Shown: one piece after another, positions 1,206-34,756 of the stretch | How the letters are laid out: the number at the start of each line of letters is the position of its first letter | How positions within the stretch are numbered: position 1 is the stretch's first letter | IMG/VR virus record: IMGVR_UViG_3300009161_000107 | Location: 1 to 38,772 of that record | Strand: one strand, 5' to 3' | DNA length: 38,772 bases | Origin: a virus | Translations under genes and position numbers: made by a program | Notes under the pieces: generated by a model | Databases searched by the model: none | What the model was told of the DNA's origin: nothing | Seen by the model: only the letters and a program-made list of their open reading frames with translations

Positions 1206-1703
1206 TTATTTAATTTGTAAGGATTTATTTTGCTGGATGTATGCTCCTTGAATATCGATTCCATTTTTAATCGCGTCTTTTATGGCCTTCTTATCCGCCC
1301 TAGGTTTCGCCTCTGGAATTACTTTATATTCGTTAGGAATTAAGTCTATATTATCAATCTCTACCGATTCAGATTTTCGAAATGAAATCTTTATCAATGG
1401 AGTAACTATTTCGCTTATCTCGTACAAATCCATCGCATTAAAGACACGCTCTTTTAACTTTGATATCATAGAGTGCCTTTTGTTTTGAAGGTCAGCTAAT
1501 CGGCTTATTTCGCTATCAATAATACTTAACTCTGCTTCTGCCTCCTTAATTACCATCGCATAGCCTTGAGACTTTACTTGCAATTGTTCTTTATTGATGG
1601 ATAAGGACTCTTCAAGGTCTGGAGTTAGTTCGCCATCTGCATCCATAAGACGTTGAGCAATGGACCTATACTCGTTTTCGATTTGATATAAATTAAGCGA
1701 CAT
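1206..1703 (-). CDS. Siphovirus Gp157-family protein
   Basis: At 165 residues this matches the usual size and pattern of the Siphovirus Gp157 family (PF05565). It opens with a LYQIENEY segment, followed by a long coiled coil at about residues 30-95. The conserved C-terminal part has RKSESVEI, IPNEYK, then DKKAIKDAIKNG and a final LQIK. Family members are encoded next to phage recombination genes and have been linked to phage resistance; the exact mechanism is not settled. The start codon lies within the last codons of the Sak4-like ATPase gene (11-base overlap), so the two are translationally coupled and probably act in the same recombination pathway. The overall match is strong by eye. Confidence 0.82.
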   Translation of the reverse strand: MSLNLYQIENEYRSIAQRLMDADGELTPDLEESLSINKEQLQVKSQGYAMVIKEAEAELSIIDSEISRLADLQNKRHSMISKLKERVFNAMDLYEISEIVTPLIKISFRKSESVEIDNIDLIPNEYKVIPEAKPRADKKAIKDAIKNGIDIQGAYIQQNKSLQIK

Positions 1704-2604
1704 TTTCTGCGGGATTAGTAAAGGTTAGAAATACTTTTTTTTCTTTTATCGTTGAAAGAAATAATTCATCCTTTTGATACATTTTAAAACTATTCCATAC
1801 CGCGGTTAATGAAATCAAATCCTTAGAAATATTACATTCTGATAGTGCTAGTTCAAGGCCAGAATCATATCTTTTCTTGAACTCTATCTCCTCCTCTACC
1901 TTGGACTCTTCAATAGACTTACCAGAATTGCACCATTCGATTATCCTCTTGCCTGTATCTTGGGTAATTATAAAGGAATCATTACCTTCGAATAGTCCAG
2001 TTCTATCCTTGCTAGGAGTAGCCATATGAGTATCCCTATCAATTGACAAAGAAACCGTCAACTCATACTCCCAACCATCTCTCTGGATGTCTTTCATTCC
2101 TACCTTGTGAACTTTCTTACCTTCTCCCATTACCGTCTCCATCTTAGACCTAGTACAAGTAATTACATGAACATCGCATTGTAATACCTTTTGAATGAAC
2201 GCATCATGTCTCGGAGTAGTCTCGTTCCATGCTGACCAAGTATTACCCTTATACTTCAATTGTGCTAACTTTTCGTTAATCTCAATACATCCTCCCGCCC
2301 CACTCCATTCGTGGCTGGATGAATCGATTATGATTACTTCCATTTCCGCGTCTTGACAGCATTGTATAGCCTCTATGTAGCGCTCTGGAGTATAAGGAGC
2401 CTCAAGGTTCAATGTCTGGAATTCTCCTAGGTGAGAATAGAGGGATGCGGAGCCATTTTCGGTATCAATTACCGCGATTTTTTTCCAATCACCAGTAATG
2501 CCATATGCCATTAGTAAGGCTGAAAATGTTTTTCCCGCTCCAGATGGGGCCGATAAGTTAAGTCTTAGCTTAACTTGCTTTCTTGTTGCTTTTTGTAATT
2601 TCAT
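1693..2604 (-). CDS. Sak4-like RecA-fold ATPase, single-strand annealing recombinase
   Basis: This 303-residue P-loop protein has Walker A SAPSGAGKT near residues 18-26, a second conserved VIDTENG near 45-51, Walker B EVIIIDS near 89-95, and a later THMATPSKDRTGLFEG segment. This layout matches the AAA_24 (PF13479) or Sak4 type of phage recombinases, which anneal single strands together with a phage SSB. The SSB-like gene at 5376-5735 in the same arm is a natural partner. The C-terminal 70 residues are helical and less conserved. It has its own candidate promoter (2728-2735) and a structured leader (2620-2712). Other RecA-like phage ATPases remain possible. Confidence 0.8.
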   Translation of the reverse strand: MKLQKATRKQVKLRLNLSAPSGAGKTFSALLMAYGITGDWKKIAVIDTENGSASLYSHLGEFQTLNLEAPYTPERYIEAIQCCQDAEMEVIIIDSSSHEWSGAGGCIEINEKLAQLKYKGNTWSAWNETTPRHDAFIQKVLQCDVHVITCTRSKMETVMGEGKKVHKVGMKDIQRDGWEYELTVSLSIDRDTHMATPSKDRTGLFEGNDSFIITQDTGKRIIEWCNSGKSIEESKVEEEIEFKKRYDSGLELALSECNISKDLISLTAVWNSFKMYQKDELFLSTIKEKKVFLTFTNPAENVA

Positions 2605-2619
2605 TTTATTTTAAATTAT

Positions 2620-2712
2620 AAAGCCCTATACAACCTCCATTACAACTCGGCCACGAATTGCAAGGGATGAAGATAGGGCTTTGGATTTTTGTCTGATTTT
2701 TCATGTGGCCGA
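2620..2712 (-). promoter_or_regulatory. Leader RNA of the Sak4-like gene with pseudoknot-order helices
   Basis: Two perfect inverted repeats interlock. AAAGCCCTAT (2620-2629) pairs with ATAGGGCTTT (2673-2682), and TCGGCCAC (2647-2654) pairs with GTGGCCGA (2705-2712). In the minus-strand RNA the order is helix 1 5' arm, helix 2 5' arm, helix 1 3' arm, helix 2 3' arm. This is an H-type pseudoknot, or a pair of mutually exclusive helices. Loops are about 22, 18 and 17 nt. The last arm ends 15 nt before the ATG at 2604. The block lies between a candidate promoter and the start codon and has no coding frame. A cis-regulatory RNA is inferred; the ligand or protein is unknown. Confidence 0.6.
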
Positions 2713-2727
2713 TAAAAATTAACTCTG

Positions 2728-2735
2728 CAAATATA
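2728..2735 (-). promoter_or_regulatory. Candidate promoter -7 box before the Sak4-like leader
   Basis: On the minus strand this reads TATATTTG, a perfect fit to the TAnnTTTG -7 element of Bacteroidota promoters, followed by CAGA. The presumed start near 2721 would place the whole pseudoknot region in the 5' untranslated leader. No clear TTTG -33 box is visible; a TTTT lies about 16 bases upstream. Confidence 0.5.
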
Positions 2736-4584: not shown

Positions 4585-4612
4585 TGTGTCGCTTTTTTTT
4601 AATTGTTTAAAT

Positions 4613-4666
4613 ATATTGTTATTTTGATTCTGTAAATGTATGTACATAATACATACTTCCGACATG
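4613..4666 (-). promoter_or_regulatory. Promoter-like repeat, copy B
   Basis: This is the second copy of the 54-base element at 3853-3906, with only a handful of differences. It follows a probable terminator and precedes the 115-aa gene. On the minus strand it carries TACATTTA-CAGA as a candidate -7 box, next to a symmetrical TATGTATTATGTACATACA region that could be an operator. Conservation of the whole block, not just the box, argues for regulator binding. Confidence 0.55.
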
Positions 4667-5756: not shown

Positions 5757-6221
5757 TTATTTAATTGATTTTATGTAAATTATATACCATTCGTAAAAGT
5801 CCTCAAAATTTCGGAATATCTTGTAAACTCCATGCGCCTTTTCTATGGCCAATTGATATTCCTTTTGAGCCGTACTCTGCGCGTCATTCATCTTAACCTC
5901 TATCTTAACGGACCTTCCAAGTATGGTGGCAGATATGTCCGCGGAGCCTTTGGTTCCTGTCGTTGGGATGTACTTCCCATTATTAACCTCATTTGCTAGA
6001 TGTCCATGGTTCTTCGAAGTACCCTTAACGAATACTCCCATCGTATTAATCCTCTCGGCTTGGTGTCCAGATAGGTTAAGAAAGTCCTTAATACATTTGG
6101 TAAGGCCATTGGCCGTACTATCTGAATACTTAGTAGCTGGTAAATAGTTAGCGGGAAAGTTTGGATTTGCCATCCGTTTCGCCTCCATAGATAACTCCTT
6201 TAGTATGTCTATTGCTTTCAT
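5757..6221 (-). CDS. PD-(D/E)XK nuclease, VRR-NUC-like
   Basis: The second half of this 154-residue protein has the nuclease core: GSADISATILG near residues 94-104, then VKIEVKMND with the EVK catalytic pair, then a conserved Gln (QKEYQ) and AHGVYKIFRNFEDF near 129-142. This order of D, ExK and Q is that of VRR-NUC and related phage endonucleases, which cut branched or single-strand-containing DNA. The N-terminal 60 residues are helical and specific to this protein. It overlaps the SF3 helicase gene by 4 bases (ATGA), a common helicase-nuclease pairing. With the RusA homologue altered, this could be the working junction or flap nuclease. Confidence 0.72.
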   Translation of the reverse strand: MKAIDILKELSMEAKRMANPNFPANYLPATKYSDSTANGLTKCIKDFLNLSGHQAERINTMGVFVKGTSKNHGHLANEVNNGKYIPTTGTKGSADISATILGRSVKIEVKMNDAQSTAQKEYQLAIEKAHGVYKIFRNFEDFYEWYIIYIKSIK

Positions 6222-7687
6222 TGTTTTGAGAAATTAATAAATCTATCTGGACCCGACTTCCTAGTAGTAACGACCCATCCTTTATATATGCCATATCTTT
6301 CAAGCCATACGCTAAAACTTCTTTGCTTTAACTTACTAAAATCTTGATATTTGTTAATGAAATCGTCAAACAAATACTTTTTATTGTATTCATTATCGAC
6401 CTCTAAGTTCTCCTCACTCCATTCTATAAAGTCTTTACTAGTTCCAGATATAGCCTTTTTATATGGCAAATTCCCAACAGATGCCGCAATAACTCCGAAT
6501 TGAAGATAGGCCCGAACGCAATCAAACATATAGTTATAGAACCTATTCCAATCGTCATCACTCCAGCCGTCGAATAGTCTTCGGCCAAAGTCATCCTTTG
6601 GGCTAAATCCAGCATGGTAGTAGTTACATAGTTCTAACTCTATTTTACGACGTTCGTGGCTACTTCCTGTTCCTTTAATGACATAGTTAGTCGTTAGCAT
6701 TATCTTTGGACTTTCGGAAAATGGAATAGAGAATTCATCCTTATTCTTTTTTTCAACACTAATGCCCTCAGAAATTATGGAAAACAATTTCTCAAAATCG
6801 AACTTACTCTGGACATCTTGAAACGCGATAATCTGAGTATCTAAATTAACACGCTGGAAGGCAAAGGACCTCGCAAAGTCAAAGTTCTTACCATCAATTT
6901 CAACGACCTTCTTAAAGTTTGAAATAGCCTTAATTATAATACCCTTGCCACTTCCGCCATTTGGGTCATCGGAAACTATCTCATCCGTTAATATTACCGC
7001 TGGAAGATAGGAGCAATCCTTATATCCGTGGAGCATATACCCAAACGTAGTTCCAAATGCATTAATATTATCCTCCTTGGAGCCGCATACGTTTTTGATA
7101 AACTTACAAAAATCGTTCTTTTCGTAGTCCTCTATAATTGATATATCCCTTTGAATAACTTGAGTATCCCATAGCATACCAGGCAAGTCAGAATAGTTTA
7201 TCAACTTATAGTTATCCTTCGTTACAATGACGCATTTATTCTTAAAGTAATAGTAGGCGCTGAATTCCGTATCCCTGTTCCAATTAACTTCCTTTTCGTC
7301 CATAATCTCGAAGATGCCATCGGAAAATATTTTGCTTTCCTTACCAGCAAATTCCTCGAATACCATGTTCCCGTTAATTGGGGTTCCCGAATAGTCGTAA
7401 TCTAGAATGTAATCCATGACGGCCTTTTTTAAATCCTTCCCATAGACCTCCGTTACTATATTATTTTTTATCGAAATAATTATCCATTTATCCCTCGCAT
7501 ATATATACCTCCAATATCCTTGCTCATGTAACCACTTTTTAAGGTCGAAATAAACAACCGAAATAATTATTTCTCTGGTTCTTGGCCGAACTATATACTT
7601 CCAAAACTTAGGATCATTACTTGTCTCCTCAAACCGTTGTTCTTGAGACTTTTTTAATCCCTTATTCTTCTCGAATGCAGCTATCAT
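6218..7687 (-). CDS. SF3/D5-type replicative helicase
   Basis: The 489-residue protein has a P-loop PNGGSGKGI near residues 240-248, a Walker B IIAFQDVQ near 286-293 and a sensor segment LTTNY near 330. This spacing is that of superfamily 3 (D5_N/poxvirus D5-like) helicases. No zinc-finger or TOPRIM primase motif is visible, so it is a helicase without an obvious fused primase. The C-terminal 80 residues look like a small winged-helix domain (FDDFINKYQDFSKLKQRSF). It is coupled by 4-base overlaps to the gene before and the nuclease gene after it, near the top of the leftward arm. It is the probable replicative helicase of the phage. Confidence 0.82.
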   Translation of the reverse strand: MIAAFEKNKGLKKSQEQRFEETSNDPKFWKYIVRPRTREIIISVVYFDLKKWLHEQGYWRYIYARDKWIIISIKNNIVTEVYGKDLKKAVMDYILDYDYSGTPINGNMVFEEFAGKESKIFSDGIFEIMDEKEVNWNRDTEFSAYYYFKNKCVIVTKDNYKLINYSDLPGMLWDTQVIQRDISIIEDYEKNDFCKFIKNVCGSKEDNINAFGTTFGYMLHGYKDCSYLPAVILTDEIVSDDPNGGSGKGIIIKAISNFKKVVEIDGKNFDFARSFAFQRVNLDTQIIAFQDVQSKFDFEKLFSIISEGISVEKKNKDEFSIPFSESPKIMLTTNYVIKGTGSSHERRKIELELCNYYHAGFSPKDDFGRRLFDGWSDDDWNRFYNYMFDCVRAYLQFGVIAASVGNLPYKKAISGTSKDFIEWSEENLEVDNEYNKKYLFDDFINKYQDFSKLKQRSFSVWLERYGIYKGWVVTTRKSGPDRFINFSKQ

Positions 7688-8076
7688 AAGGTAGGGATTT
7701 TTATTCCTTTAACCAAAAATGGAATTATCTTATAGTCTGGGTTATGATTACCCAAATCATATACCATCGTTAAAGTATATTTTGTTCCCATTGCTCCATG
7801 ACTATCCTGTCTTACCTTCTTTACATTTTCCAAAATCTTTATTTCTGGATATACCGACTGAATCGACTCAATTAATCCAGAAAGAATTGAAATAACATCT
7901 TGCAACGTCTCACATTCTGCCCTCTTACTTGAAGATGGAGCCATAGCATGAGAGTATAGTTTTTGCTCCAAAATCGTGTTACTCAAATAATCCAACCCAT
8001 TAACACTTTCCTCCAAGAGAGAATCGAAGGAATAGCCATAAGTGCTTAATTCTGGTAATAATAGTTTATGGTTCAT
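7684..8076 (-). CDS. First gene of the leftward arm, hypothetical, 130 aa
   Basis: No family is recognised. The product is helical in its first 95 residues (including DVISILSGLIESIQSVYPEI) and then has beta-like segments (KYTLTMVYDLG). It is the first gene after the structured leader at 8088-8209, and its stop overlaps the SF3 helicase start by 4 bases. That position makes it the gene most exposed to any leader-based control. It could be a helicase loader or an early regulator, but only the position suggests that. Confidence 0.62.
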   Translation of the reverse strand: MNHKLLLPELSTYGYSFDSLLEESVNGLDYLSNTILEQKLYSHAMAPSSSKRAECETLQDVISILSGLIESIQSVYPEIKILENVKKVRQDSHGAMGTKYTLTMVYDLGNHNPDYKIIPFLVKGIKIPTL

Positions 8077-8087
8077 ATTATTAAATT

Positions 8088-8209
8088 AAAAACCCCCTCC
8101 CATAATTTCACGGATGACTAAGTCCGCCAATATGAATTGGTGCGAAATTACGGGAAGGGAGTTAGAAATATCTTTTGGAATCATTATTGGCATTAATTAA
8201 CTTAGTCAT
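8088..8209 (-). promoter_or_regulatory. Structured leader of the leftward arm: three-way junction versus alternative helix
   Basis: An outer stem (8095-8109 with 8144-8159, about 15 bp with one bulge) encloses two hairpins: CGGA/TCCG (8111-8126, loop TGACTAAG) and CCAAT/ATTGG (8127-8140). On the minus strand the outer stem is followed by GGTTTTT, like an intrinsic terminator. A competing helix is possible: ATGACTAAG (8114-8122) with CTTAGTCAT (8201-8209), and GCCAATA (8126-8132) with TATTGGC (8185-8191). It uses both hairpins' bases and excludes the junction. The layout is that of an attenuator, riboswitch or protein-controlled leader for the whole early arm. It ends about 12 nt before the first ATG at 8076. 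Confidence 0.62.
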
Positions 8210-8213
8210 GACG

Positions 8214-8221
8214 CAAAAATA
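8214..8221 (-). promoter_or_regulatory. Candidate promoter -7 box of the leftward arm
   Basis: On the minus strand this reads TATTTTTG, matching the Bacteroidota TAnnTTTG box. The expected start, about 5-8 bases downstream, falls at or next to the 5' arm of the alternative helix (8201-8209), so the RNA would begin with that arm. No convincing TTTG -33 box is seen. The nearest GGACKTA repeats lie 44 bases upstream, where a regulator could act. Confidence 0.45.
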
Positions 8222-8264
8222 CAAACTTATTTCGAAATTGATACTCTTTCGAAAAAATATATGT

Positions 8265-8830
8265 GGACGTAAGGATTTTTCGCTACGTCCTAAATTTGTA
8301 CTTTTTTGCCTCACTACGTCCAAATCGGTACTTTTTGGGGTAAAAAACCAATTTAAAAAATAAAAAAGTATGTATTAATTTTTTTCATGTATTTTCGACT
8401 TTTTGACCTAAAATGTCAAAATATGGACGTAGTGAGTCCAAAATAAAAACAGCGGATTGACGTCCGACATGGCTCAATCCCAATAAATATAGGACTTGGA
8501 CTTATGGACTTATGTGACTTTACGTTTTTTACGACTCTACGTCCACTTTTTTGAAGTTGTAATATATTGATTATTAGTTATATATATAATTTTAATGTTA
8601 ATTAGGACTTATGGACGTAAGAAAAGTAAAAGATTATTTGAAAAGCAAAACAATGAAAAAAGGGGCTTGTTCTACTTTCTAAAAAAAAAAGGAGTTTTTC
8701 TACGTCCATACGTCCACATTTAATAAGTAGCTGATAATATGGTATTTAGATAAATAAAATGCAAATCCAAATCGTCCAAAATAAATATTATTTACTTAAC
8801 TTATTACAAATCAGTGAATTGCTTACGTCC
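8265..8830. repeat. GGACKTA repeat array in the divergent control region
   Basis: Nine exact GGACGTA heptamers occur on either strand: 8265-8271, 8425-8431 and 8613-8619 on the plus strand; 8284-8290, 8315-8321, 8538-8544, 8701-8707, 8709-8715 and 8824-8830 inverted. A GGACGTC variant is at 8459-8465, and GGACTTG/GGACTTA variants are at 8492, 8498, 8506 and 8605. Three pairs are spaced exactly 8 bases (8498/8506, 8605/8613, 8701/8709). By eye the ACGTCC core is otherwise seen once, near 30674. An AT-rich tract lies inside the array (8560-8605). Operator array, replication origin iterons or both are possible. Confidence 0.75.
8283..8338. repeat. Two direct copies of a 25-base unit within the control region
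   Basis: The unit CTACGTCC-aaat-GTACTTTTT occurs at 8283-8307 and again at 8314-8338, 31 bases apart (about three helical turns), with three or four differences. Each copy contains one inverted GGACGTA element. The fixed spacing puts both binding sites on the same face of the helix. The weak frame across this stretch (8175-8363) is not considered a gene. Confidence 0.6.
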
Positions 8831-8866
8831 TAAAATAAAGAAATAGGAATTATTCATATAATTCCG

Positions 8867-8874
8867 TATATTTC
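8867..8874 (+). promoter_or_regulatory. Candidate late promoter before the terminase operon
   Basis: TATATTTC is close to the TAnnTTTG -7 box and lies 29 bases before the ATG of the 28-aa membrane peptide. Related boxes occur before other rightward genes (TATATTGC at 13008, TATATTTG at 21175, TATAATTG at 28016). No -33 box is evident, and the last GGACGTA repeat (8824-8830) ends 36 bases upstream, in a position to influence it. Confidence 0.35.
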
Positions 8875-8895
8875 AGCCGAAAAACAAAAAAAGAA

Positions 8896-8982
8896 ATGTC
8901 CGATTCAAAGAAAGGATGCCTTATAGTAACTATAGTTTTAATAGTTTTTTGGGCTTTAATCTTTTTTTTAATACTTAAATAA
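8896..8982 (+). CDS. 28-aa single-pass membrane peptide coupled to terminase
   Basis: An ATG after a purely A-rich leader opens a 28-codon frame: a short charged start (MSDSKKG), a hydrophobic run of about 19 residues (CLIVTIVLIVFWALIFFLI), then Leu-Lys. Its TAA shares a base with the ATG of the small terminase subunit (TAATG). The same junction occurs before the large glycosyltransferase, the 567-aa adhesin and other genes here, which supports real translation. It is the first frame of the rightward operon. Function is unknown; a membrane-anchored regulator, a superinfection factor or a lysis-timing peptide are possible. Confidence 0.6.
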   Translation: MSDSKKGCLIVTIVLIVFWALIFFLILK

Positions 8983-21816: not shown

Positions 21817-21888
21817 TTTAGGATTGAATAATGGTAGTTCGTAATTCCGTAAGGGGTTAAAGTCGGGGTTCGAGTCCCTGTCCTAAGA
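21817..21888 (+). tRNA. tRNA-like element with an abnormal anticodon arm
   Basis: A cloverleaf can be drawn. The acceptor is TTTAGGA/TCCTAAG (21817-21823 with 21881-21887, one wobble), and the D stem is GAAT/GTTC with a GG-containing loop. The T arm CGGGG/CCCTG has the classic loop TTCGAGT, and the discriminator is A. The anticodon arm is irregular. In standard spacing it would show anticodon GTA (Tyr) with C33 and a poor stem. Better pairing gives an 8-base loop (TAATT/GGTTA) or a 6-bp stem closed by GTAA. The length, 72 nt, is normal, and CCA is not encoded (A-C-A follows). It may be a degenerate tRNA, a tRNA-mimic or an unusual suppressor. Confidence 0.5.
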
Positions 21889-21896
21889 CAATTAAA

Positions 21897-27074: not shown

Positions 27075-27982
27075 TGCCTACGTTAGAAGCAATAATTAAA
27101 AAGAAAGTAGAAAGGCTTGAAAGCGTTCCCGACAATTTAGCTATATCAGTTAAGAAGGCTCAGAAGGAAATATATAACGATGTCTTAGAGTTGCTTGGAA
27201 AGCTAGAGAGGAAAGAAGGCATGATAACTATGACTAAGTCTAACCTATTGCTAATTGACGAGATTACTTTAAAGACCAGAAAGGTAGTCTTAGGTAGTGA
27301 TTACGTCGATTCGGTCCAGTCTTTTGTTAACGAATTCGATAGTCAAGCCAAAATCAACGATAGTTTTTTCAAGAAAATGGATGTAACTATGACGGAAGAG
27401 GCATTGACTAATCAGATGGTTATATCGGCTAAGAAAAATAGCGCGGAATTACTATTGGGGACTCCAATGGATGCACAATTTTTGCAACCGATAAAAACCT
27501 TACTAGACGATGCGGTTTCTTCTGGCGCCTCTTGGAGTAAAACCGTTGCCAATATTCAAACATTTGTAATCGGAAACGAGGATGTAGATGGAAGATTGTT
27601 ACGATATTCGAAGCAAATTGCTTCCGACTCTTTTGCTACCGCTGATAGAGCCTATACTAATGTAGTTGCTGACGATGCTGGATTCGAATGGTATCTTTAT
27701 ACAGGAGGAATAATCCAAGATACTAGAGAATTTTGCGCTCAGCGAAATAATAATTACTATCACTATAAAGAGGTTGAAAAATGGGGTACTTTAAGTGATT
27801 GGTCTGGACGAATGCCTAATACTGATAGCCAAACCATATTCATTACTTGCGGAGGATTCAATTGTAAACATTCACTAATCCCAACCTCAGTATTCGCGGT
27901 TCCAATTCAAGACGTTAAGAGGAATATTTCGAATGGAAATTACAATCCATCGGAAGAAGTTGCAAAAGAATTAGGATTATAA
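27074..27982 (+). CDS. MuF-like minor head protein
   Basis: The 302-residue protein follows the portal gene, as head morphogenesis proteins of the Mu F / SPP1 gp7 type do. The C-terminal part carries the family pattern: IQDTREFCAQRNN near residues 215-227, a spaced Trp/Gly region (WSGRMPNTDSQTIF), then CGGFNCKHSLIP near 258-269 with paired Cys and His that may bind metal. The N-terminal half is helical. Such proteins are minor virion components that interact with the portal and are sometimes injected. No toxin domain is fused at the C-terminus. Confidence 0.72.
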   Translation: MPTLEAIIKKKVERLESVPDNLAISVKKAQKEIYNDVLELLGKLERKEGMITMTKSNLLLIDEITLKTRKVVLGSDYVDSVQSFVNEFDSQAKINDSFFKKMDVTMTEEALTNQMVISAKKNSAELLLGTPMDAQFLQPIKTLLDDAVSSGASWSKTVANIQTFVIGNEDVDGRLLRYSKQIASDSFATADRAYTNVVADDAGFEWYLYTGGIIQDTREFCAQRNNNYYHYKEVEKWGTLSDWSGRMPNTDSQTIFITCGGFNCKHSLIPTSVFAVPIQDVKRNISNGNYNPSEEVAKELGL

Positions 27983-32921: not shown

Positions 32922-34756
32922 AAAAACAAATTTTTACTTTAATTTTTACTTTACTAACTCTATTCTCTTTTTCGCAGAATATTCTCACGATAGTAGATGC
33001 AACGAATACCGTTGTAATTACTTGGTCAGATGGAAAGATAGAGTACGTTTCCAAGGAAGGCTCTAAGATAGTTAATCCAACTTCGGGTAACATTATTTAT
33101 TTAATGGATTTGAATAGGGCTACTTATCCTCTTGATTATACACTAGTCACTAATCCAGCATCTGGAAGTAGAGCGGCCTTAGCTAATACTATTCAAGGCT
33201 ATCTAGACTTAGGAACTTTTGGACCTACAGGACCAACAGGACCAACAGGAGAAGATGGTGGCTCAGCGGGTAGAATATACTACTTAGACTATGCGACTGC
33301 CTCAGATGTGTCTCCTTATAAATTAGCCAATACCGTACCTACAGGACTATCTGTTACATCAACTACTACTTCATTAAATACCGGAGGAGCGGTTTTAGTT
33401 TCATCATTTCTTACCGCATCGGGACAACCTGGAGTTACAAATTTTCCAGTAGGAATTGCAGAGAGAACTATCCATGCAAGCATAACAGGAGGGTCTCCAA
33501 AGGCTAGGTTAATGATTGAAATATATAAAAGAAATTTAGCGGGAACTGAGACATTAATGAGGCGAGATACTTCTGAGATATTTTCAAACTCATCTATTCA
33601 AGAAATTCATTGGAATGCGGTTTATGTCTCGCCTACTGCGGTATTAGCTACCGATAGGTTCTTGTTCAAGTTATATGGAATACGAGTATCTGGAGCCGCT
33701 ACATTATCTTTAGTAGTAAATTATAATAACGGAGATGTAACCTTTGTGAAAACAACTATTACCACGGGAGAAACAGGCCCAACAGGACCAACGGGCGCAA
33801 CAGGACCGACAGGAACAGGAGGAGCAACGGGTGCAACAGGACCATCCTCATTTAATGCCTACTATGGTGCTGGCACAGATGGTGCGGTTACAATTAGCGG
33901 AAATACTACATTGACTCGTAATATGTACTATTCGACTTTAATAGTAAACAATGGCGTTACTCTTTCAACGGGAGACTACCAAATATTTGCCTCTACATCC
34001 ATTACTAATAATGGAACTATCTCTGGTCGAATTAATGGCGTTGCGGGTGGTGCTGGAGGAAGTGGTGGTAGTGGCGGTGCAAGAGGTACGGCGGGAACTT
34101 ATAGTATGAGCATTGGTGCTATCGGAATGGGTGGTAGCGGAGCATTTGGAGCAACTGGTGCATCTATAGCTGCTGGGGCTACAGGAACCGCCGTAACGGG
34201 TGGAACTTCTTGCTTTGTTATTGGTGGCGGAAATGGTGGCGCTGGAGGACTAGCATCTGGTGGAGCGGGTGGTGCAACCGTTACAACGGGAACCGCGTTA
34301 TTTTATCCCATTCAAACTATAATTTCTATGTTTAATCAGCAAGTACCAATATCTCAAGGAGGTAGTGGTGGTAGCGCTGGAGGTGGCGGTGGTGCATTGA
34401 ATACAGGAGGTGCTGGTGGAGGAGGAGGCGCTGGTGGTGGATTCGTTTATCTAGCAGCCCCAACTATAACTAACAATGGAACTATAACCGCTGCTGGTTG
34501 GAATGGAGGAAATGGTGGCGCTGCATCTGGAGCGGGTAATGCTGGTGGCGGAGGAGGCGGCGGAGGCGGTACAGGCGGTATTGTATACGAATTATATAAC
34601 GTACTTACAGGAGGCACAACAACCGTAACTGGTGGAGTTGGTGGTACTGGCGGAGTAAGAGTTGGTACAGGAGTTGCGGGTTCAAATGGGACAGATGGAC
34701 TTGCGGGAAAGATAGTAAGATTAAACTTGACCACACAGGTCGTAACCGTTAATTAA
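32918..34756 (+). CDS. Exported collagen-like and glycine-rich fibre-like protein, 612 aa
   Basis: The N-terminal residues MKKQIFTLIFTLLTLFSFSQ form a signal peptide. The next 80 residues are paralogous to the preceding 98-aa protein (shared QNI, SDG, NP and NRATY). Collagen-like GPT repeats follow near residues 102-116 and again near 284-308 (TGPTGPTGATGPTG). Between them is a beta domain of about 165 residues. Residues 370-570 are glycine-rich with GGAGGSGG-type runs, resembling polyglycine II helical bundles of some phage fibre tips. A fibre-like adhesin with a Sec signal does not fit a virion protein made in the cytoplasm, so export to the host surface is one reading. Confidence 0.72.
   Translation: MKKQIFTLIFTLLTLFSFSQNILTIVDATNTVVITWSDGKIEYVSKEGSKIVNPTSGNIIYLMDLNRATYPLDYTLVTNPASGSRAALANTIQGYLDLGTFGPTGPTGPTGEDGGSAGRIYYLDYATASDVSPYKLANTVPTGLSVTSTTTSLNTGGAVLVSSFLTASGQPGVTNFPVGIAERTIHASITGGSPKARLMIEIYKRNLAGTETLMRRDTSEIFSNSSIQEIHWNAVYVSPTAVLATDRFLFKLYGIRVSGAATLSLVVNYNNGDVTFVKTTITTGETGPTGPTGATGPTGTGGATGATGPSSFNAYYGAGTDGAVTISGNTTLTRNMYYSTLIVNNGVTLSTGDYQIFASTSITNNGTISGRINGVAGGAGGSGGSGGARGTAGTYSMSIGAIGMGGSGAFGATGASIAAGATGTAVTGGTSCFVIGGGNGGAGGLASGGAGGATVTTGTALFYPIQTIISMFNQQVPISQGGSGGSAGGGGGALNTGGAGGGGGAGGGFVYLAAPTITNNGTITAAGWNGGNGGAASGAGNAGGGGGGGGGTGGIVYELYNVLTGGTTTVTGGVGGTGGVRVGTGVAGSNGTDGLAGKIVRLNLTTQVVTVN

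Follow-up and report, generated by a model that had tools for sequence, protein, structure and literature searches.

A covarying terminator-like leader upstream of early genes in Bacteroidota phages: a candidate family of RNA attenuators

Two leaders of a tailed Bacteroidota phage, both 5' of early genes in a 38,772-base virus record (hereafter the window, the whole stretch of DNA analyzed), share with leaders of other phages a common layout in which the letters differ but the pairs match, a pattern that suggests, on sequence comparison, that early genes of phages are governed by a family of RNA switches not described before. The recurrent layout consists of a TAnnTTTG promoter box, which we take to be the Bacteroidetes-type -7 consensus, a short strand (A), an intrinsic terminator carrying the complement of A (A') in its loop, and the start codon of a replication or recombination gene. 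We favor, at somewhat better than even confidence, the reading that many Bacteroidota phages use such leaders as promoter-proximal transcription attenuators on early (replication, recombination) genes, gated by A:A' pairing.

Results

The terminase of the window is nearest to those of Flavobacterium phage 11b and Cellulophaga phage phi10:1. Its two arms diverge, the early arm lying on the minus strand from 8076 down to 659 and the late arm on the plus strand, with the terminase from 8982. The early arm encodes, in order, an orphan 130-aa protein, a DUF5906 primase-helicase, SSB/DUF3127, an AAA_24 ATPase and Gp157. All nine genome copies of GGACGTA fall within the iteron array of the divergent intergenic region (Table 1), a candidate replication origin or operator. 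Two TTTCGAAA palindromes (about 8230-8253), operator-like in appearance, overlap the predicted promoter of the leader at the head of the early arm (element 1). Elsewhere, ARAGORN called a tRNA-like gene at 21817-21889 (+) with an unreadable, two-base anticodon, and strand A recurs within a late-arm gene as an 11-nt match (ATGACTAAGTC, 27230-27240, +) that could be chance.

Table 1. Coordinates of the two leaders and of neighboring features in the window.
Feature	Position	Strand	Basis or remark
Element 1, predicted promoter -7 box TAAGTTTG	8222-8229	-	TAnnTTTG match
Element 1, second -7 box match TATTTTTG	8214-8221	-	TAnnTTTG match
Element 1, strand A (ATGACTAAGT), predicted RNA 5' end	8200-8209	-	exact 10-bp complement of 8114-8123
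Element 1, GCCAATA, second complementary stretch	8185-8191	-	exact complement of 8126-8132; window-specific
Element 1, predicted terminator stem P1, 5' arm	8142-8163	-	fold
Element 1, inner hairpin 1 (CCAAU/AUUGG)	8127-8140	-	fold
Element 1, inner hairpin 2 GGA[CUUAGUCA]UCC, loop = A' (8114-8123)	8112-8125	-	fold
Element 1, predicted terminator stem P1, 3' arm	8091-8111	-	fold
Element 1, U-tract after GGGGG	8088-8092	-	sequence
Element 2, promoter -7 box TATATTTG	2728-2735	-	sequence
Element 2, strand A (TCGGCCAC) in small hairpin UUUUUAU[CGGCCAC]AUGAAAA	2705-2712	-	p = 0.015 vs shuffles
Element 2, outer stem 5' arm AAAGCCCTAT	2673-2682	-	z = -3.2
Element 2, inner hairpin TTGCAA[TTCGTGGCCGAG]TTGTAA, A' GTGGCCGA (2654-2647) in loop	2640-2663	-	
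Element 2, outer stem 3' arm ATAGGGCTTT, then ATAATTTAAAATAAAATG (weaker U-tract)	2620-2629	-	
130-aa protein, first gene 3' of element 1	7684-8076	-	no detectable relatives
DUF5906 primase-helicase, after the 130-aa gene	6218-7687	-	
AAA_24 ATPase, gene after element 2	1693-2604	-	L025 homologue also has such a leader
Iteron array GGACGTA/TACGTCC, 5' of element 1, divergent intergenic region	8265-8830		context

From the -7 box TAAGTTTG of element 1 (8229-8222, minus strand), transcription is predicted to begin around 8215-8220, so that strand A lies downstream of the start. An earlier sequence-only reading had located the 5' arm of an alternative pairing at the predicted start of the transcript. 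The same reading described an outer stem of about 15 bp enclosing two hairpins; both hairpins and the stem are real, although the stem is longer, with 18 bp (8142-8159 / 8094-8111) and a further 3 bp past a bulge. The fold contains 41 pairs, five of them G-U, has a minimum free energy of -39.5 kcal/mol that only 2 of 200 dinucleotide shuffles matched or bettered (z = -3.3), and is followed 3' of the stem and two hairpins by GGGGGTTTTT (tail also given as GGGGGUUUUU). A stable stem followed by a U-tract, as in an intrinsic terminator, is thus predicted from the sequence.

The second set of pairings claimed for this leader exists as well, both helices being exactly Watson-Crick, with 10 rather than 9 bp in the first (8200-8209/8114-8123) and 7 bp in the second (8185-8191/8126-8132). 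The nested 9+7 bp arrangement occurred in 2 of 20,000 dinucleotide shuffles, compared with 1% for the 9-bp helix alone, and A:A' pairing in element 1 has p = 0.002 against the shuffled leader. What does not hold is the claim that these pairings use the same bases as the terminator-like fold and exclude it. The target of the 10-bp helix is the 8-nt loop of hairpin 2, which contains the complement of the strand A core (8201-8207), and of the hairpin's own pairs the helix shares only the closing one, A8123-U8114; the 7-bp helix competes with inner hairpin 1 only, and neither uses any base of the outer stem. Since the 10-bp helix joins that loop to the predicted 5' end of the RNA, the second state would be a pseudoknot that is not necessarily exclusive, and because the outer stem is untouched by either helix, it could form together with the terminator. 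In prefix folding the A:A' helix is the most stable state up to about 8100, and from about 8096 the terminator fold takes over; forcing the alternative helices gives -29.6 vs -39.5 in a nested-only energy model, which scores the folds as exclusive because pseudoknots, and hence coexistence, are not representable in it. We read the 10-bp helix as a pseudoknot or a contact between loops, either of which might be present alongside the long stem.

A second element of the window occupies 2620-2735 on the minus strand, 5' of the AAA_24 ATPase gene, whose start codon lies at 2604. R1, a covariance model of one subfamily, matches it weakly at 2613-2681 (minus; 18.2 bits, E 0.07). The AAA_24 homologue of locus L025 has a leader that follows this plan but uses a different code, AGTAGAGC. 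A single phage can carry two leader codes, of the GGCCAC and ACTAAG types in the window and CGTCCAC and TATCGAC in L327.

Searches of IMG/VR, GTDB contigs, phages and plasmids, including with the 130-aa gene, returned no close protein or DNA relatives of the window, no relative of the element 1 leader and no syntenic relative, and distant primase, AAA_24 and terminase relatives have gene orders that differ from that of the window. We therefore searched by architecture, scanning 277 distant Bacteroidota-phage loci with a descriptor of the layout. The scan retrieved the window together with L030, L023 and L275, which have a TAnnTTTG box directly 5' of strand A and a gene past the U-tract, and share the plan in unrelated letters. 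Among rep homologues in L007, L280 and L282-L286 (100, 79 and about 47% identical) the plan is kept while A, A' and the stem are replaced, and one of these A:A' pairings contains a G-U pair. One subfamily shares GGATnGGA{A'}CCnTGAA. Element 1 is not matched by R1, so its placement rests on the plan and on the GGA{A'}CCnTGAA signature that its hairpin 2 shares with L310, L294 and L321; on these grounds we conclude with good confidence that both window leaders belong to the common family plan. Two other candidates were set aside, one in Polaribacter phage P12002L (6 bp, at chance level) and one in L168, where the leader of an SSB-like gene is not conserved together with its gene. Three phages that are not related to one another (L023, L189 and L331) use the 7-8-mer GTGAGAC(G)/CGTCTCAC as A or A'.

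In a permutation test on 161 unique candidates with promoter, terminator and ATG, A:A' scores of at least 18 were obtained in 29 compared with a mean of 6.4 (max 10), and scores of at least 20 in 16 compared with 2.2 (max 5). The 452 candidates without a following ATG had no clear excess (27 vs 18), and a looser rerun with more promoter variants gave a smaller one (53 vs 27.7 at a score of at least 18; max 39). Promoter-motif enrichment at loose thresholds was modest only, with control motifs shifting onto the same loci, and the permutation test was used in its place.

A blind pattern scan of IMG/VR, in which five loop bases and all upstream sequence were left open, yielded 13 unique elements, 11 of them with enough upstream DNA. 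An exact 7-nt complement of the element's own loop lies upstream in 10 of these 11, where permutation predicts 0.0; three of the ten are on contigs already used in designing the pattern and seven are new, with four loops previously unseen. The eleventh, L399, is without promoter and terminator and is a chance match. In the A10 alignment (11 elements) A:A' is 100% paired with both-sided changes in five of seven pairs, sliding the structure along the alignment lowers the paired fraction to 31-46%, and on every measure the whole structure beats 500 of 500 shuffles. Sequence relatedness inflates such a comparison, but has no bearing on the many loop codes that arose independently. Across this alignable subfamily the 7-nt loop is free to vary, and every change in it is matched by one in A. 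In the nearly identical leaders of L322 and L328, A changes from GTCGTGG to GTAACGG and A' from CCACGAC to CCGTTAC. We have high confidence, from these comparisons, that selection has acted on A:A' pairing in the RNA of the alignable subfamily. Distant complementarity is thus joined by compensatory change at the level of the family, as for a kissing loop or pseudoknot, while element 1, whose own relatives were not found in the databases searched, contributes complementarity alone. Covariation, which the earlier proposal had named as a check, is present in other phages for the pairing of the 5' strand with the terminator loop; the 7-bp helix had no counterpart among the other family members. 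Of 25 members, 14 have strand A within a tight 5' hairpin, compared with 3.1 in shuffled flanks (max 8), so that many members are kisses between two loops; the member list for this test and for the context tests, the only ones in which it was used, was built by requiring A:A'.

Recognizable domains encoded 3' of the family leaders are primases, replication initiators, ERF and AAA_24. The R1 search of 395 Bacteroidota genomes revealed no chromosomal family members; its matches look like ordinary gene-end terminators ending GGGTTTTTATTTT, and P1 with its U-tract therefore resembles a real terminator. Together with the covariation of A:A' in other phages, this resemblance lends weight to the suggestion of the sequence-only reading that entry into the early arm is controlled at the RNA level. 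The accompanying remark that no known riboswitch class is recognizable also stands, with no Rfam match at gathering score in the window or in 25 loci; a permissive scan of 7950-8950 gave chance-level results only, those at 8092-8165 being chance matches to microRNA models. Of the triggers then suggested, a small-molecule ligand is unsupported because the paired part is hypervariable and only one subfamily has the conserved GGAU/UGAA internal loop. Control by translation of a leader peptide fares no better: in 6 of the 31 leaders A' is not preceded by any ATG, so that the 15-codon frame of the window (8209-8162) is probably incidental. A cis-antisense RNA was likewise rejected, the 4332 nt of the 31 leaders containing no opposite-strand TAnnTTTG, although other promoter types are possible, as was a general second target of A downstream, found in 1 of 31 where 0.9 are expected by chance. 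In L275 strand A is repeated directly after the start codon (CCTACAAAGT, 4594-4615), and A' could pair there too.

Discussion

Comparison among phages demonstrates, at the level of sequence, the A:A' pairing, the outer stem and the promoter-terminator-gene layout; termination at these sites, its modulation by A:A', the sign of that effect and its trigger are what we infer from them. Attenuation at early operons is the most likely function because stem and tail resemble gene-end terminators and the downstream genes serve replication and recombination, and we hold with moderate confidence that the family leader is an attenuator; the weak U-tract of element 2 counts against this reading. Under attenuation, RNA polymerase would start just 5' of A and transcribe A, then the terminator with A' in its loop, and then the gene. 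A and A' would pair over 7-10 bp; with A in a 5' hairpin the contact would be a kiss between loops, and otherwise a pseudoknot. Since A' is synthesized before the terminator's 3' arm, A:A' has the chance to form early and could then bias closure of the terminator while the polymerase is on the U-tract. We lean toward pairing as favoring read-through, because it precedes the terminator arm in synthesis and a strong default terminator must be overcome, though our confidence in this sign is low; as no bases of the terminator stem are used, A:A' need not prevent termination and could instead stabilize the hairpin. An occupant of A or A' would then favor termination, and the most economical occupant would be other copies of the same leader RNA.

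The nearest mechanistic model is the pT181 attenuator, in which an anti-terminator blocks the terminator's 5' arm while specificity comes from kissing with an antisense RNA (PMC4878617). As in pT181-type rep attenuators, an intrinsic terminator is predicted in the 5' leader just before a replication gene, an upstream intramolecular pairing would compete, and specificity would be set by kissing hairpins. The defining anti-terminator feature is absent here, however: instead of sequestering the 5' arm of the stem, A pairs with the terminator loop, and in place of a fully complementary antisense RNA acting in trans, no opposing TAnnTTTG promoter occurs in the 31 leaders. Bacteroidota gene-end terminators are alike in the style of stem and tail (AAACCC..GGGTTTTTATTTT), whereas the family elements are promoter-proximal, precede a gene and have an enlarged loop complementary to the RNA 5' end. 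Riboswitches of the crcB (fluoride) type likewise have terminators overlapping a structured 5' leader element (PMC2864571), but the family core is hypervariable and has neither a conserved aptamer nor an Rfam match.

Phage early leaders can also be controlled in trans: P4 CI RNA and the C4 RNA of P1 and P7 are trans-acting phage RNAs that work through short complementary stretches differing between heteroimmune phages. By a similar logic, the terminated leader (about 130 nt) could be a small RNA acting on later copies of the leader, for phage-specific negative feedback or superinfection immunity, an alternative that we consider possible but on balance doubtful. Such an effect on fresh leaders would explain the hypervariable, matched codes and the distinct codes of the two leaders per phage (window, L327), and the second A copy in L275 fits it; that copy is not general, whereas P4 CI and C4 have targets on either side of the loop RNA, and an intramolecular A should outcompete a partner in trans. 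The family further differs from these systems in lacking a match to Rfam C4 (RF01695) and in its intrinsic rather than Rho-type terminator. More speculatively, and with somewhat greater doubt, the leader terminators, as a large family of hypervariable and self-complementary RNAs, might be self-recognition tags by which a matching leader RNA is sensed and the phage's own early operon shut, a barcode-like form of superinfection immunity; if so, Bacteroidota phages would have RNA-based immunity with many specificities.

Kiss and stem are sterically compatible and covariation by itself does not prove a switch, so A:A' might be a static, non-switching clamp that anchors the 5' end of the RNA to the terminator hairpin and thereby stabilizes a small RNA or strengthens the terminator; we think this unlikely, given that the elements lie only directly 5' of start codons, with no clear excess in promoter-terminator sets without a gene. 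That kissing shapes a platform for a phage or host protein, either antiterminator or repressor, is suggested by the GGAU/UGAA internal loop conserved beside A' in one subfamily, but many members, the window included, have lost or changed this loop, making a platform decidedly unlikely. As for a DNA-level operator built from half-sites (inverted repeat ATGACTAAG..CTTAGTCAT), inverted repeats are present in the DNA too and iterons adjoin; the G-U pairs in stems and A:A' of other members, and the constant placement of A past the promoter and A' in the terminator loop while both vary freely, make it highly improbable.

Early gene control in gut and aquatic Bacteroidota phages is little known, and the element provides a concrete, testable regulatory step: a recurrent covarying leader before replication genes that is absent from Rfam 15. 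No description of such leaders was found in the open-access literature searched. The mutually distinct codes of 7-10 nt could supply orthogonal RNA attenuators, and the family is open to testing because Flavobacterium phage 11b, which is cultivated, appears to carry one element. This strong element (L404, AJ842011, about 33,643-33,730) has A CGGGCAGGT and A' GCCTGCCCG followed by CTTGAAA, with an ATG 13 nt past the stem.

A different leader precedes an SSB-like 87-aa gene in L195, L183, L190, L203, L206, L215, L218, L224 and L233. Its H-type pseudoknot-like arrangement, ACCAAYCAT..CTTAGCCTCAGAGGT..GTTGGTTNAAATAGACTGAGGC, lies roughly 60-100 nt 5' of the ATG and had no Rfam match in the three loci scanned (L195, L203, L218); it is conserved while its first stem varies, and is a candidate for a separate RNA family.
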